A DNA stretch of 42,559 nt from Candidatus Kaiserbacteria bacterium (GTDB lineage Bacteria > Patescibacteriota > Minisyncoccia > Phycocordibacterales > UBA2100), in contig JACPLD010000001.1 in the NCBI GenBank assembly GCA_016186765.1, positions 1 through 42,559 of the forward strand. The letters are read 5' to 3'. Under the pieces are notes generated by a model, which saw only the letters and a list, made by a program, of their open reading frames with translations, was not told where the DNA came from and searched no databases. Positions 27,716 through 38,640 of the stretch are shown piece by piece. A program made the position numbers and the translations under genes. How positions within the stretch are numbered: the first letter of the stretch is position 1; each line of letters begins with the position of its first letter.

Positions 27716-27763
27716 TTGACCCCCATTCCCCACATCCCTATACTTTACTTTATGGTAAAGTAT
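27716..27763 (+). promoter_or_regulatory. arsR promoter with overlapping 24-bp operator palindrome
   Basis: Promoter TTGACC (27716-27721), 17-bp spacer, TATACT (27739-27744), 7 nt to the ATG. A perfect inverted repeat ATACTTTAC (27740-27748) and GTAAAGTAT (27755-27763) with a 6-bp centre covers the -10, start point and start codon. This is an excellent position for an ArsR-family autorepressor. Confidence 0.82.
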
Positions 27764-28084
27764 CGGGATGGGGAGAAAATGCTTGATGCGCTCGGCTTGC
27801 CGCTGCGTCGGAGCATGGTGCGTCGTCTATGGCACGGAGGTGCGATGTCTCTTTCGAAGCTCGCTGCGCCCTACGAACTCACGCTTCCGGCCGCTCTGAA
27901 GCATCTTCGTGTCCTCGAAGACTCTGGCATCGTCAAATCGCATAAACGCGGACGCGTACGCGTGTGCATATACAACCCTTCTGCCCTCAAAGAGCTCGGC
28001 GGCTGGCTTGCATCGCACAGCGCATTCTGGGAGTCGAGCTTCGATCGCTTTGAGGCAATTATTAATAAAAAGAAAAAGAACTAA
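27752..28084 (+). CDS. ArsR-family transcriptional regulator
   Basis: 110-residue winged-helix protein: MLDALGLPLRRSMVRRLW, then GAMSLSKLAAPYELTLPAALKHLRVLEDSGIVKSHKRGRVRVCIYNPSALKELGGWL, followed by a C-terminal helix (SHSAFWESSFDRFEAIINKKKK). No metal-binding cysteine cluster is present, so it belongs to the effector-unknown ArsR group that pairs with SRPBCC genes. ATG 27752 fits the promoter and family start, rather than 27704. The 24-bp palindrome over its own start codon suggests autorepression. The SRPBCC gene begins 2 nt after its stop. Confidence 0.92.
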   Translation: MVKYRDGEKMLDALGLPLRRSMVRRLWHGGAMSLSKLAAPYELTLPAALKHLRVLEDSGIVKSHKRGRVRVCIYNPSALKELGGWLASHSAFWESSFDRFEAIINKKKKN

Positions 28085-31709: not shown

Positions 31710-32621
31710 ATGAAGCTGCACCATCTCATTGAGACCCAACAATTCGACCGGAGCTCGCTCAAGCAACTTTTTGATCTCGCCACCTCGCTCGAAGGCAAGC
31801 GCGAGCGCTCGCTCGAGGGCAAGATACTCGCCTCGCTCTTTTATGAGCCTTCGACGCGTACGCGGTTCTCGTTCGAGTCAGCGATGCTCCGGCTTGGCGG
31901 TGACGTTCTGACCATGGAGAGCGTGCGCGACTCCTCTTCCGACAAGAAAGGGGAGACGCTCGAAGACGCCATAAAGGTCATCAATCACTACGCCGACGCC
32001 ATCGTACTCCGGCATTCGGAGACCGGCTCGGCTGCCCGCGCAGCGGCGGTTTCCAAGGTTCCTATCATCAATGGTGGTGATGGCAATCTCGGGCAGCATC
32101 CCACGCAAGCCCTTCTCGATCTCTACACGGTGCAGCGCGAGCTTGGCCGCCAGGATGACATCCACATTGCATTTGTCGGTAATCTTAAATATTACCGCTC
32201 TGCTCGGTCGCTCTCCTATCTCCTCAGCAAGTACAAGAACATCCGCATCACGTTCGTCTCAGTGCCGGAGCTGCAGATGGGTGATGATGTCAAACAGCAT
32301 TTGCGCGAGAACAATGTGCGTTTCCAAGAGACGGATGATATGCAAAGCATCATCAGAGATGTGGATGTTCTCTATCAGACGCGGATAGCCAAGGAATGGA
32401 TAACAACGGGTGATTACGAATCGCTCAAGGGCCGATATGTCATCACGCGCCCTATAGCAGATTCTATGAAAAAGGGCGCCATCATCATTCATCCGCTACC
32501 GCGTGTGGACGAGATAGCGATAGAGGTGGACGATTCCCCACATGCCGTGTATTTCAAGCAGGTTGGCTACGGACTCATCGTCCGCATGGCCATACTCAAG
32601 ACCATTCTCAACGGAAAATAA
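31710..32621 (+). CDS. pyrB: aspartate carbamoyltransferase catalytic subunit
   Basis: Joins carbamoyl phosphate and aspartate to carbamoyl aspartate, the committed pyrimidine step. 303 residues with LFYEPSTRTRFSFESAMLRLGG (carbamoyl phosphate site), SSSDKKGETL, GDGNLGQHPTQALLDLYT and HPLPRVDEI. It is normal length for the catalytic chain; no regulatory pyrI follows. Its 3' end overlaps the convergent uppP stop by 14 nt. It is preceded by the inverted repeat at 31660. Neighbouring pyrimidine genes are absent, so the pathway is scattered or incomplete. Confidence 0.96.
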   Translation: MKLHHLIETQQFDRSSLKQLFDLATSLEGKRERSLEGKILASLFYEPSTRTRFSFESAMLRLGGDVLTMESVRDSSSDKKGETLEDAIKVINHYADAIVLRHSETGSAARAAAVSKVPIINGGDGNLGQHPTQALLDLYTVQRELGRQDDIHIAFVGNLKYYRSARSLSYLLSKYKNIRITFVSVPELQMGDDVKQHLRENNVRFQETDDMQSIIRDVDVLYQTRIAKEWITTGDYESLKGRYVITRPIADSMKKGAIIIHPLPRVDEIAIEVDDSPHAVYFKQVGYGLIVRMAILKTILNGK

Positions 32622-33375
32622 AGAAAAAGAAGAGAGCTGCTACGAATATCCGGTAGATGCCGAATGGAATGAACGAGCGGGTCCGGACGAATGCGAGAAA
32701 CAGCTTGATGGTAAGCAGCGCGATCACGAACGATGTTACAAATCCGATTGCGAGTGAGAGAACATTGGCGCTCGAGAGGGAGCCGGCATTCTTGAGGAGA
32801 TCGTATCCCGTTGCGGCGAGCATCGTCGGGACGGCAAGGAGGAACGAGAACTCAACTATCGCTACGCGTCGTATACCCAATGCTAATCCTCCCACTATCG
32901 TTGCTGCGGAACGCGAGACGCCGGGTACGATAGCGATAGCTTGGAAGAGCCCGATGAGGAACGATTGCGTATAGGAGATCTCCGAAGGAGACGCTGCGCC
33001 ATCAGATTCTTTGTGGATTAGCTCGAAGACGATAAGTGCGATGCCCCCGAGGAGAAGTGCCCATAGCACGATCACCTCACTTCCCAGAAGGTACGATTTC
33101 ACGAATGGATATGCAGCAAAACCGATGATGCCTGTGGGAATGAAGCCGAGCACAAGACGTTTCAAAACTTCGAGTTCTAGGAAGGATTTCCAGTAGAGCA
33201 CGGCAACAGAAAGAATGGCACCGAGCTGAATCGCGATTTCGAATGTCTTGAGAAAATCGGATTCGGGAATGCGCAAAAGTTCGCTCACGAGAATGAGATG
33301 CCCCGTGGAAGAAACGGGCAGGAATTCGGTTGCTCCCTCGACGATGCCGAGAACAAAGCTTTCAAGGATGCCCAT
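32608..33375 (-). CDS. uppP: undecaprenyl-diphosphatase, BacA type
   Basis: Integral membrane phosphatase turning undecaprenyl diphosphate into the monophosphate carrier for wall and surface polymers. The 255-residue protein begins with the signature GIVEGATEFLPVSSTGHLIL and later has the second signature ...AIVPGVSRSAATIVGGLALG, with about seven helices. Its start overlaps the upstream PAP2 stop by 14 nt, so dgkA, PAP2 and uppP read as one operon for recycling undecaprenyl carrier. It converges on pyrB. Confidence 0.96.
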   Translation of the reverse strand: MGILESFVLGIVEGATEFLPVSSTGHLILVSELLRIPESDFLKTFEIAIQLGAILSVAVLYWKSFLELEVLKRLVLGFIPTGIIGFAAYPFVKSYLLGSEVIVLWALLLGGIALIVFELIHKESDGAASPSEISYTQSFLIGLFQAIAIVPGVSRSAATIVGGLALGIRRVAIVEFSFLLAVPTMLAATGYDLLKNAGSLSSANVLSLAIGFVTSFVIALLTIKLFLAFVRTRSFIPFGIYRIFVAALFFFFIFR

Positions 33376-33916
33376 TGCGGACTATTTTCGCATACTTCCA
33401 TCCCAGCCACACGCAAAACGAGCCCAAGAGTACTCCTCCAAGGACGTCACTTGGATAGTGAACTCCAAGGTAAATACGACTCAACGATACGAGAATGATA
33501 GTGAGTGCCATTCCTACAATGCCGACATATCGCCATATCTGTCGGTCGATACGTCGCCACGCGAGGAGTAAGAGAAAACCGTACAGCGCAACGGCAAGCG
33601 CAGCGTGAGCGCTTGGAAATGAATACCAGGTCTCGAGATAGGCTTGAAATTCGCCCGGTGGCCTCGCACGCTCGACGAGTCCCTTTAAGATAAGTATCAG
33701 TATTCCTGCCGACGCTACAGAAATCGAAAGGCCGAACGCATATGCGTATTTTCGCTTCGAAACGAGTATGAGCACTACGCATACAGCGACTGCGTAGATT
33801 AGCCATGCGCGCCCAAGCATGCTTATCCATATGAACATTGCTATGAGATTTGAATCTCGCACCGTAAAAAGCGCCTCAAGTATTCGCATGTCGAAGGCGG
33901 ACAGAGCCGCCATCAT
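33362..33916 (-). CDS. PAP2-family phosphatase (probable undecaprenyl-PP phosphatase)
   Basis: 184-residue membrane phosphatase with the three PAP2 motifs: KGLVERARPP, YSFPSAHAALAVAL (PSAH) and SRIYLGVHYPSDVLGG, in about five or six helices. It fits the BcrC/YbjG type that dephosphorylates undecaprenyl diphosphate on the outer face. Overlap with dgkA by ATGA and with uppP by 14 nt ties it to lipid carrier recycling. Phosphatidylglycerophosphate phosphatase is an alternative. Confidence 0.9.
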   Translation of the reverse strand: MMAALSAFDMRILEALFTVRDSNLIAMFIWISMLGRAWLIYAVAVCVVLILVSKRKYAYAFGLSISVASAGILILILKGLVERARPPGEFQAYLETWYSFPSAHAALAVALYGFLLLLAWRRIDRQIWRYVGIVGMALTIILVSLSRIYLGVHYPSDVLGGVLLGSFCVWLGWKYAKIVRNGHP

Positions 33917-34275
33917 ATGAGCGCAAAGAGGCGAGGCACAAAAATGATGGTGCCAATGATGAAGGCTGCGGCGGACGCAATGAGGACCGCTGCTGCGGCG
34001 AGATCTTTGATCTTCCTAATGTGAGGATCTGGGTCGCCCTTCACCATGTCGCAAAACTCCTCGAGTGCAGTATTAAAAGCTTCAGCCGCGAGCACGAAGC
34101 CGATGATGAGAATGACCAGAGCCCATTCGATGGGGGATATCGCAAGAAACCATCCGAGGAAGAGCACGAGAATCGCGACTGCTATTTGCAGCTTGAAACT
34201 GAATTCTTCCCGCCACGCGATCTGTATGCCATTCAATGCATACCGAACGTTGTGTACCTTTTTCTCGAGCGCCAT
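33913..34275 (-). CDS. dgkA: diacylglycerol/undecaprenol kinase (DgkA family)
   Basis: 120-residue, three-helix membrane kinase with the family motif AAEAFNTALEEFCDMV and the end ...KDLAAAAVLIASAAA. In Gram-positives the homologue phosphorylates undecaprenol to the monophosphate; the linkage with PAP2 and uppP favours this over diacylglycerol kinase. The open frame runs further upstream, but ATG 34275 (MALEKKVHNV) is chosen because consensus TATAAT ends 7 nt before it and the family starts here. Confidence 0.92.
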   Translation of the reverse strand: MALEKKVHNVRYALNGIQIAWREEFSFKLQIAVAILVLFLGWFLAISPIEWALVILIIGFVLAAEAFNTALEEFCDMVKGDPDPHIRKIKDLAAAAVLIASAAAFIIGTIIFVPRLFALI

Positions 34276-34288: not shown

Positions 34289-34351
34289 CGCTGCCTTTTT
34301 TGCTGACGGACATCTTGCCGAAGAGAGAAGGGTAGATGCCGTTGTCCCCAT

Positions 34352-34386
34352 CCAAATTTGCAAGAAACTTGCAAATTTGGTAGGGT
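34352..34386 (+). promoter_or_regulatory. predicted Fur-family operator over the fur-ZIP promoter
   Basis: CCAAATTTGCAAG (34352-34364) and its perfect inverted copy (34368-34380), with AAA between. It contains TTGCAA-N5-TTGCAA (34358-34374), the layout published for the Nur (nickel Fur-family) box. TTGCAA at 34358-34363 can serve as -35, 17 bp before TAGGGT (34381-34386), so the palindrome fills -35 and spacer. The ATG follows at 34397. An attenuator hairpin is the alternative. Confidence 0.8.
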
Positions 34387-34396
34387 GGGTGGGTTC

Positions 34397-34846
34397 ATGG
34401 GGCACGGTTATAAATATTACAAAGGAAGCGACAGAAAAGTCTTACAGGCCGTTTTACGCGACAAGGATTTTTATTCCACTGAGGGGCGCCTGCAACTGCT
34501 CTCGTTTCTAAAAAAGGCCTCGGCACCAGTATCTGTTCCCGAAGTCACCAAGCAGATCGGCAAAAATCTTGTCGAAGCCAATGTCTACCGCGCGCTTGAA
34601 GCGCTTGCCGACGCCGGAGTTCTTGCTCGTTCCGACATCCGACGCGGCGGCGCACACTATGAATATCCTCATTCGCACCATCACCATATCGTCTGCAGCA
34701 ATTGTGGCCATACTGAGGAGGTCGAAGATTGTGGTGGTAAGTCGATGGAGAGACGCGCATTTCGTAACTCAGAGTCATTTGCGGAAGTTCGGACGCATGC
34801 GCTCGAATTTTTTGGCTTGTGCAGAGCCTGCGCGCACGCGCGATGA
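34397..34846 (+). CDS. Fur-family metal-responsive regulator
   Basis: 149-residue DNA-binding repressor. The N-terminal winged helix runs FYSTEGRLQLLSFLKKASAPVSVPEVTKQIGKNLVEANVYRALEALADAGVLARSDI, with the family NVYRxLexL phrase. The C-terminal half has the structural zinc site CSNCGH and C-terminal CRACAHAR, and a histidine cluster YPHSHHHH. ATG 34397 is favoured over 34358 because the latter lies in the operator. Overlap with the ZIP gene by ATGA shows an operon. Zinc (Zur-like) is the most likely signal given the partner; nickel and iron remain possible. Confidence 0.92.
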   Translation: MGHGYKYYKGSDRKVLQAVLRDKDFYSTEGRLQLLSFLKKASAPVSVPEVTKQIGKNLVEANVYRALEALADAGVLARSDIRRGGAHYEYPHSHHHHIVCSNCGHTEEVEDCGGKSMERRAFRNSESFAEVRTHALEFFGLCRACAHAR

Positions 34847-35598
34847 TTATGCTCGAAGTACTTGCTGCCTCGCTTCTCGTCATGCTCGTCTCGCTGTCGG
34901 GAAAGCTCATCACATGGCACGGCGTAGGACCTCTCATCGAGCGCAATCTGCACTTTTTTGTAAGTTTTGCAGCAGGCGTTCTCCTTATCATCGCCTATAG
35001 TCTTTCGACAGAGCTTGTCGAGCATGCGGGTTCGCTTTCGACAGGACTGCCGTGGATCGCGATAGGTGCAGTCGTCGTGCTTGTCGCCTTTCGCTACATT
35101 CCGCAGTTCCATCATCACCACGACAAAGAAGACCACCCTCATTCGATGATCGATGTCAATCGCCTCTTCGCGAGCGATGCTGTACACAATATTGGCGATG
35201 GTATCGTGATCGTTGTGTCGTTTGCCGCCTCGCCCGTGCTTGGTATCGCGAGCACCATAAGCATCATGGTGCACGAAATGCTCCAAGAGATCTCGGAATT
35301 CTTCGTGTATCGGGAAGCCGGCCTACCGGTTCGCCTCGCACTCACCTTAAATTTCATTACCTCAGGCACCATTCTCATTGGTACATTTGGTGCATTCTTT
35401 CTCTTGGAGAGATTCGAGGCGCTCGAAGTGCCGCTGCTTGGTCTGTCAGCAGGTTCTTACCTCGTGGTAGTCTTTCATGATCTCATTCCGCACTCGATCT
35501 CGAAGGGTAACGGCCGCGCTCATCTCGCAAAACACGCAGCGTTTTTTGTGGCAGGTCTCGCCCTCATGGCGGTTCTCGTCACGTTTCTCCCGGCATAG
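34843..35598 (+). CDS. ZIP-family metal transporter
   Basis: 251-residue membrane protein with about eight helices. A histidine-rich cytoplasmic-type loop (FHHHHDKEDHPHS) follows helix 3. Metal-path motifs are SDAVHNIGDGIVI (canonical HNxxDG) and MVHEMLQEISEF (HExxxE). ZIP proteins bring zinc and related divalent metals into the cytoplasm. ATG 34843 (MIMLEVL) overlaps the Fur stop. Under the palindromic operator, metal depletion would raise both regulator and transporter (inference). Confidence 0.93.
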   Translation: MIMLEVLAASLLVMLVSLSGKLITWHGVGPLIERNLHFFVSFAAGVLLIIAYSLSTELVEHAGSLSTGLPWIAIGAVVVLVAFRYIPQFHHHHDKEDHPHSMIDVNRLFASDAVHNIGDGIVIVVSFAASPVLGIASTISIMVHEMLQEISEFFVYREAGLPVRLALTLNFITSGTILIGTFGAFFLLERFEALEVPLLGLSAGSYLVVVFHDLIPHSISKGNGRAHLAKHAAFFVAGLALMAVLVTFLPA

Positions 35599-38556: not shown

Positions 38557-38640
38557 GGAACCTCCGCCATGCAATTTTCCGCCTGCGAAACTCGCTACGC
38601 TCAAACAGTCCTCGTCGAAAAATTGCATGGCGGAGGTTCC
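38557..38640. repeat. 84-bp element with 22-bp perfect terminal inverted repeats
   Basis: GGAACCTCCGCCATGCAATT and two more T (38557-38578) recur as a perfect inverted copy at 38619-38640, with a 40-bp centre. It fills most of the zincin-tyrS gap and makes a very long hairpin in RNA. No ORF inside. It resembles a miniature inverted-repeat element more than a terminator, as no U-run follows. Confidence 0.9.

Follow-up and report, generated by a model that had tools for sequence, protein, structure and literature searches.

A Fur-family regulator and a ZIP importer behind one putative operator

The fur-ZIP gene pair described here is probably an autoregulated (autorepressed), Zur-like zinc-uptake switch, in which a Fur-family regulator and a metal importer would share one promoter overlapped by a palindromic operator. 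The palindrome, its conservation, the promoter layout, the synteny, and the lack of a convincing second site are established by sequence. To our knowledge, gene regulation in Patescibacteria (CPR) is poorly known. An operator that is defined by its sequence and linked to zinc-type importers in many families provides a handle on metal sensing in these reduced, mostly uncultured cells, whose zinc regulons become readable from genomes. The features of the locus are listed in Table 1.

Table 1. Features of the fur-ZIP locus, numbered within the window (the whole 42.6-kb stretch of DNA that was analyzed)
Feature	Position	Strand	Basis or remark
Perfect palindrome, proposed operator	34352..34380	.	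CCAAATTTGCAAG-AAA-CTTGCAAATTTGG; 13-bp arms, 3-nt center
-35 element TTGCAA within operator	34358..34363	+	Alignment of 63 sites; inferred
Conserved core TGCAA-N5-TTGCA, patescibacterial box	34359..34373	.	Site comparison across relatives
-10 element TAGGGT, 17 nt past -35	34381..34386	+	TAnnnT peak at same offset in relatives
Fur-family regulator, 149 aa, sole one in genome	34397..34846	+	PF01475, 61 bits (curated cut-off, 23.1 bits)
C100-x2-C103, first half of structural Cys4 zinc site	34694..34705	+	65/65 order homologues
C142-x2-C145, second half of structural Cys4 zinc site	34820..34831	+	65/65 and 61/65 homologues
ZIP-family metal importer	34843..35598	+	PF02535, 54 bits; start overlaps fur stop

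The palindrome upstream of fur was the longest perfect inverted repeat of the window when gaps of 0 to 7 were scanned. In 20 first-order Markov resamples, the longest arm reached only 8 to 11. The 29-bp perfect palindrome of the original prediction was confirmed and lies beyond all resamples. With mismatches allowed, the pairing extends to 18-nt arms (34347-34385). The genome (755 kb) has a single copy of TTGCAA-N5-TTGCAA, and its likeness to the Nur box, also part of the prediction, agrees with the published form (PMC3919588). Elsewhere in the window, a 25-nt inverted repeat (38557-38640; 96% complementary, 34-nt loop) and a 23-nt inverted repeat (27726-27777; 87% complementary, 6-nt loop) were observed.

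The two genes were expected to be translationally coupled, and the ATGA overlap of the fur stop and the ZIP start at 34843-34846 fits this. The ZIP gene is the only PF02535 match over the cut-off in the genome; a second match is sub-threshold and carries three in-frame stops. ZnuA was not found in the genome, and since completeness is 96%, gene absences are likely rather than certain. With one Fur, one clear ZIP, and no ZnuA, the idea of a self-contained metal-uptake switch is supported. Divergent from fur, on the minus strand (32608-34275), adjacent genes encode BacA/UppP, a PAP2 phosphatase, and a diacylglycerol (undecaprenol) kinase, a cluster that likely serves lipid-carrier recycling.

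The box is conserved upstream of fur in relatives

For a motif-free count, every 5-mer gapped palindrome was tallied in the upstream regions of 65 order-level fur genes. TGCAA with a gap of 5 ranked first by far, with exact matches in 33 of the 65 loci. The next-ranked palindromes were other registers of the same site, and the first distinct one was the variant TGCGA (6 loci); in 100 shuffles of the upstream regions, no palindrome exceeded 3 loci. When up to one mismatch was allowed, TGCAA-N5-TTGCA preceded fur in 48/65 order-level loci (0/65 in shuffles) and in 37/70 phylum-wide loci (2 in shuffles), counts that overstate the independent cases because the fur loci are kin by descent; the boxed loci span many families. 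The same search upstream of 31 Verrucomicrobiota Fur loci gave 0/31, a contrast with Patescibacteria that partly reflects differing mixtures of Fur subfamilies. Among 60 close relatives, exact W-TGCAA-N5-TTGCA-W was found in 19 of 23 genomes with fur versus 7 of 37 without it (p = 2e-6), and the reversed control pattern in few genomes of either group. Box sites away from fur in relatives were mostly inside coding sequence and were taken as chance.

Thus, the core recurs near fur-like genes across Patescibacteria, as would be expected of the lineage-type operator originally proposed, and the lack of conservation named as counterevidence was not observed. The three closest orthologues deviate, with one mismatch in L003, two in L040, and a shifted even palindrome in L039, which suggests operator drift within the genus. 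In L039 (1405-1520), the palindrome ACGCAACTTGTTGCGT has a gap of 4 instead of 5, a possible change of operator spacing. A DNA alignment limited to the four nearest upstream regions gave no useful information. Tandem boxes with starts about 46 to 56 bp apart were seen upstream of fur in L051, L046, L047, and L052 (genomes G010, G199, G209, and G215) and may allow cooperative or two-promoter control.

In the genome of the window itself, two other exact core sites were found, both within genes, and a whole-genome core search revealed no convincing second box. Core matches with one mismatch were considered as a genome-wide regulon and dropped, as they numbered 130 versus 93 for the reversed control and were mostly noise.

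Promoter layout and a probable leaderless mRNA

When 63 boxes were aligned in the fur direction, the pattern was TTGCAAATnATTTGCATTT and then TAnnnT, which spans +15 to +20 relative to the center and lies 17 nt after TTGCAA. TAnnnT was present at exactly the expected offset in 24/63 sites and 1 base closer in 11 more, compared with 11 at most for upstream offsets in the AT-rich flank. In the window, TAGGGT is a poor consensus match, and a generic sigma-70 consensus scan called no promoter at the fur-ZIP locus; the promoter claim therefore rests on comparison with relatives. Their common arrangement supports the earlier suggestion that the palindrome covers the -35 and spacer of the fur-ZIP promoter.

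The start codon, as predicted in the relatives' loci, lies 6 to 8 nt past the -10 in 28 of the 38 loci having such a -10, and exactly 6 nt past it in 21. For the window, the distance from TAGGGT to the fur ATG is 10 nt. In the 28 loci, transcription would start at or beside the start codon, implying a fur mRNA that is leaderless or nearly so in the boxed relatives. For this phylum, the boxed fur promoters offer a candidate case of leaderless transcription with good support.

Zinc-type importers accompany the box

The genes beside the box bear on its function. Among 70 phylum loci, an exact match to the degenerate box YGCRA-N5-TYGCR was found in 30/35 with a ZIP, ZnuA, or ZnuC neighbor versus 9/35 without one (table 30/9/5/26; odds ratio, 17; p = 7e-7), with neighbor classes assigned by profiles seeded on our own sequences. 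Other types of Fur paralogue in the phylum mostly had neither the box nor a zinc-transporter neighbor. The boxed fur genes adjoin ZIP, ZnuA/ZnuC, YibE/F, or a CobW-type GTPase; the last of these, COG0523-like, adjoins the box in L053 and L054. Locus L097 of G002 holds a second ZIP gene, separate from the first, that is likewise preceded by the box (TTGCAT-17-TATACT).

A YibE/F-like membrane protein (PF07907) recurs by boxed fur-ZIP genes, in at least 26 of 95 Fur loci (for example, L004:4182-5360 and L048:1899-3029). This synteny suggests a role for YibE/F, a protein of unknown function, in zinc handling. PF07907 was not found in the genome of the window, and YibE/F was ruled out as a member of the window's own system.

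A Fur fold and its putative metal-site residues

The AlphaFold model of the regulator (pLDDT 83) matches the Fur family, with winged-helix and dimerization domains, and both predicted CxxC zinc sites are present (C100/C103 and C142/C145). The nearest named relative is a Kaiserbacteria MAG (62% protein identity). Where E. coli Zur has Cys88, the regulator has Tyr88 (Y in 54 and F in 9 of the 65 homologues), and Glu89, which aligns with Glu81 of Fur, does not vary (65/65). H94-H97 and H134-x2-E137 are conserved among the homologues, and the alignment shows an H-x-x-E plus HHHH pattern common to the regulator and Mycobacterium tuberculosis Zur. The E. coli Fur ligand pattern at the dimer site, HHxDH, is not matched in the alignment; His96 sits at Asp89 of E. 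coli Fur and is kept in 60/65 homologues. C112 is kept in 47/65, at a position where E. coli Fur and Zur have no Cys, and may be the alternative Cys of a Zur-like N2OS sensory site.

Zinc and competing explanations

The conserved ZIP, ZnuABC, and COG0523-type GTPase neighbors indicate zinc. As profile and fold comparison leaves Fur, PerR, Zur, Mur, and Nur alike for the regulator, the case for zinc rests on this genomic context, from which we infer zinc specificity. Counting against it are Tyr88 in place of the sensory Cys, the invariant Glu89, and the PDB profile and fold searches, in which Fur and PerR ranked above Zur. The weaker or changed boxes of the closest orthologues and the poor -10 of the window also weigh against the switch. 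The same autorepressor might instead sense iron or manganese in a Fur- or Mur-like manner, with the ZIP protein importing that metal. These best matches favor this explanation, as does Glu89 with His95 and His97, which is closer to the Fur site than to the Zur Cys site; moreover, ZIP proteins can have a broad range and carry Fe or Mn. However, in relatives ABC importers of the ZnuA/ZnuC type take the place of ZIP or CobW-type GTPases are added, and His96 and H134-x2-E137 resemble Zur, unlike E. coli Fur, which makes an iron or manganese switch unlikely. The importer swap is not decisive against manganese, because ZnuA-family proteins can carry Mn as well. Iron, manganese, and peroxide genes were not seen as conserved neighbors, where the systematic search covered zinc-type classes.

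A Nur-type nickel switch, at which the original prediction hinted, is very unlikely: the layout equals the Nur box tTGCaa-N5-ttGCAA, but the Nur targets described with that box are superoxide dismutase genes (PMC3919588), while the neighbors here (ZIP, ZnuABC, and COG0523-type GTPases) point to zinc, and Nur (3eyy) is not the closest by sequence. Slimmer still is the chance that the palindrome functions as a hairpin in RNA or DNA, whether terminator or attenuator, and not as an operator. Its single-strand folding is strong (z -5.8), but a terminator scan made no call at the locus, the palindrome would lie upstream of the inferred transcription start, and both the sequence TGCAA-N5-TTGCA and its spacing to the -10 are conserved beyond mere complementarity.

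Proposed mechanism

For the zinc-uptake switch, we infer that the regulator binds DNA and represses, that zinc is its co-repressor, and where transcription starts; the scheme is as follows. A Fur-family dimer carrying metal, in all likelihood zinc, would bind the palindrome at TGCAA and TTGCA, two halves that would form a 7-1-7-like site. Because the palindrome includes the -35 and spacer, the bound dimer would shut RNA polymerase out of the fur-ZIP promoter. When zinc is scarce, metal would leave the dimer and the promoter would open, yielding one mRNA, leaderless or nearly so, for the regulator and the ZIP importer, coupled at ATGA. With both genes on one promoter and joined at ATGA, the loop would be closed: importer and repressor would rise together at low zinc, and both would be switched off once zinc is back. 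As no convincing second site was seen, the zinc-uptake regulon of this genome may be the two-gene fur-ZIP operon alone, which relatives appear to extend with YibE/F, ZnuABC, or a CobW-type GTPase.

Comparison with known systems

The operator is apparently an unreported, new variant within the Fur family. Among the papers searched, none dealt with a metalloregulator, its operator, or Zur in Patescibacteria, and none besides the Nur paper printed the searched forms of the box; a similar logo may exist elsewhere, for instance in RegPrecise. More tentatively, and with the odds against it, the locus could represent a phylum-wide subfamily of metalloregulators, with an operator of its own that covers the -35 and spacer in leaderless promoters, a C112 sensory site unlike known Zurs, and YibE/F as an additional, so far unrecognized component of bacterial zinc handling.

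With Fur, Mur, and PerR, the regulator shares the fold, the Glu at the Fur Glu81 position, the His cluster, and the Cys4 site. The classical Fur and PerR boxes differ from the patescibacterial box. In the canonical Zur scheme, a metal-loaded dimer on the box blocks RNA polymerase and is released by metal loss; Zur regulons as listed include ZIP, ZnuABC, and COG0523-type genes, autoregulation is known in some species, and strict conservation of the sensory residues is not seen across Zurs (PMC6103462). The system described here resembles Zur in its Fur fold, Cys4 structural site, 7-1-7-type palindrome, box over the -35 of zinc-importer promoters, and ZIP/ZnuABC/COG0523 synteny. Unlike Zur, it has no sensory Cys at the E. 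coli Cys88 position, its box differs from the E. coli Zur motif (the only Zur motif compared; PMC6103462), and it would combine a one-operon regulon with a leaderless promoter. Nur of Streptomyces coelicolor shares the layout tTGCaa-N5-ttGCAA and a box overlapping the target promoter, but is nickel specific and controls sodF (PMC3919588), whereas the patescibacterial box accompanies zinc-type importers and probable autoregulation.
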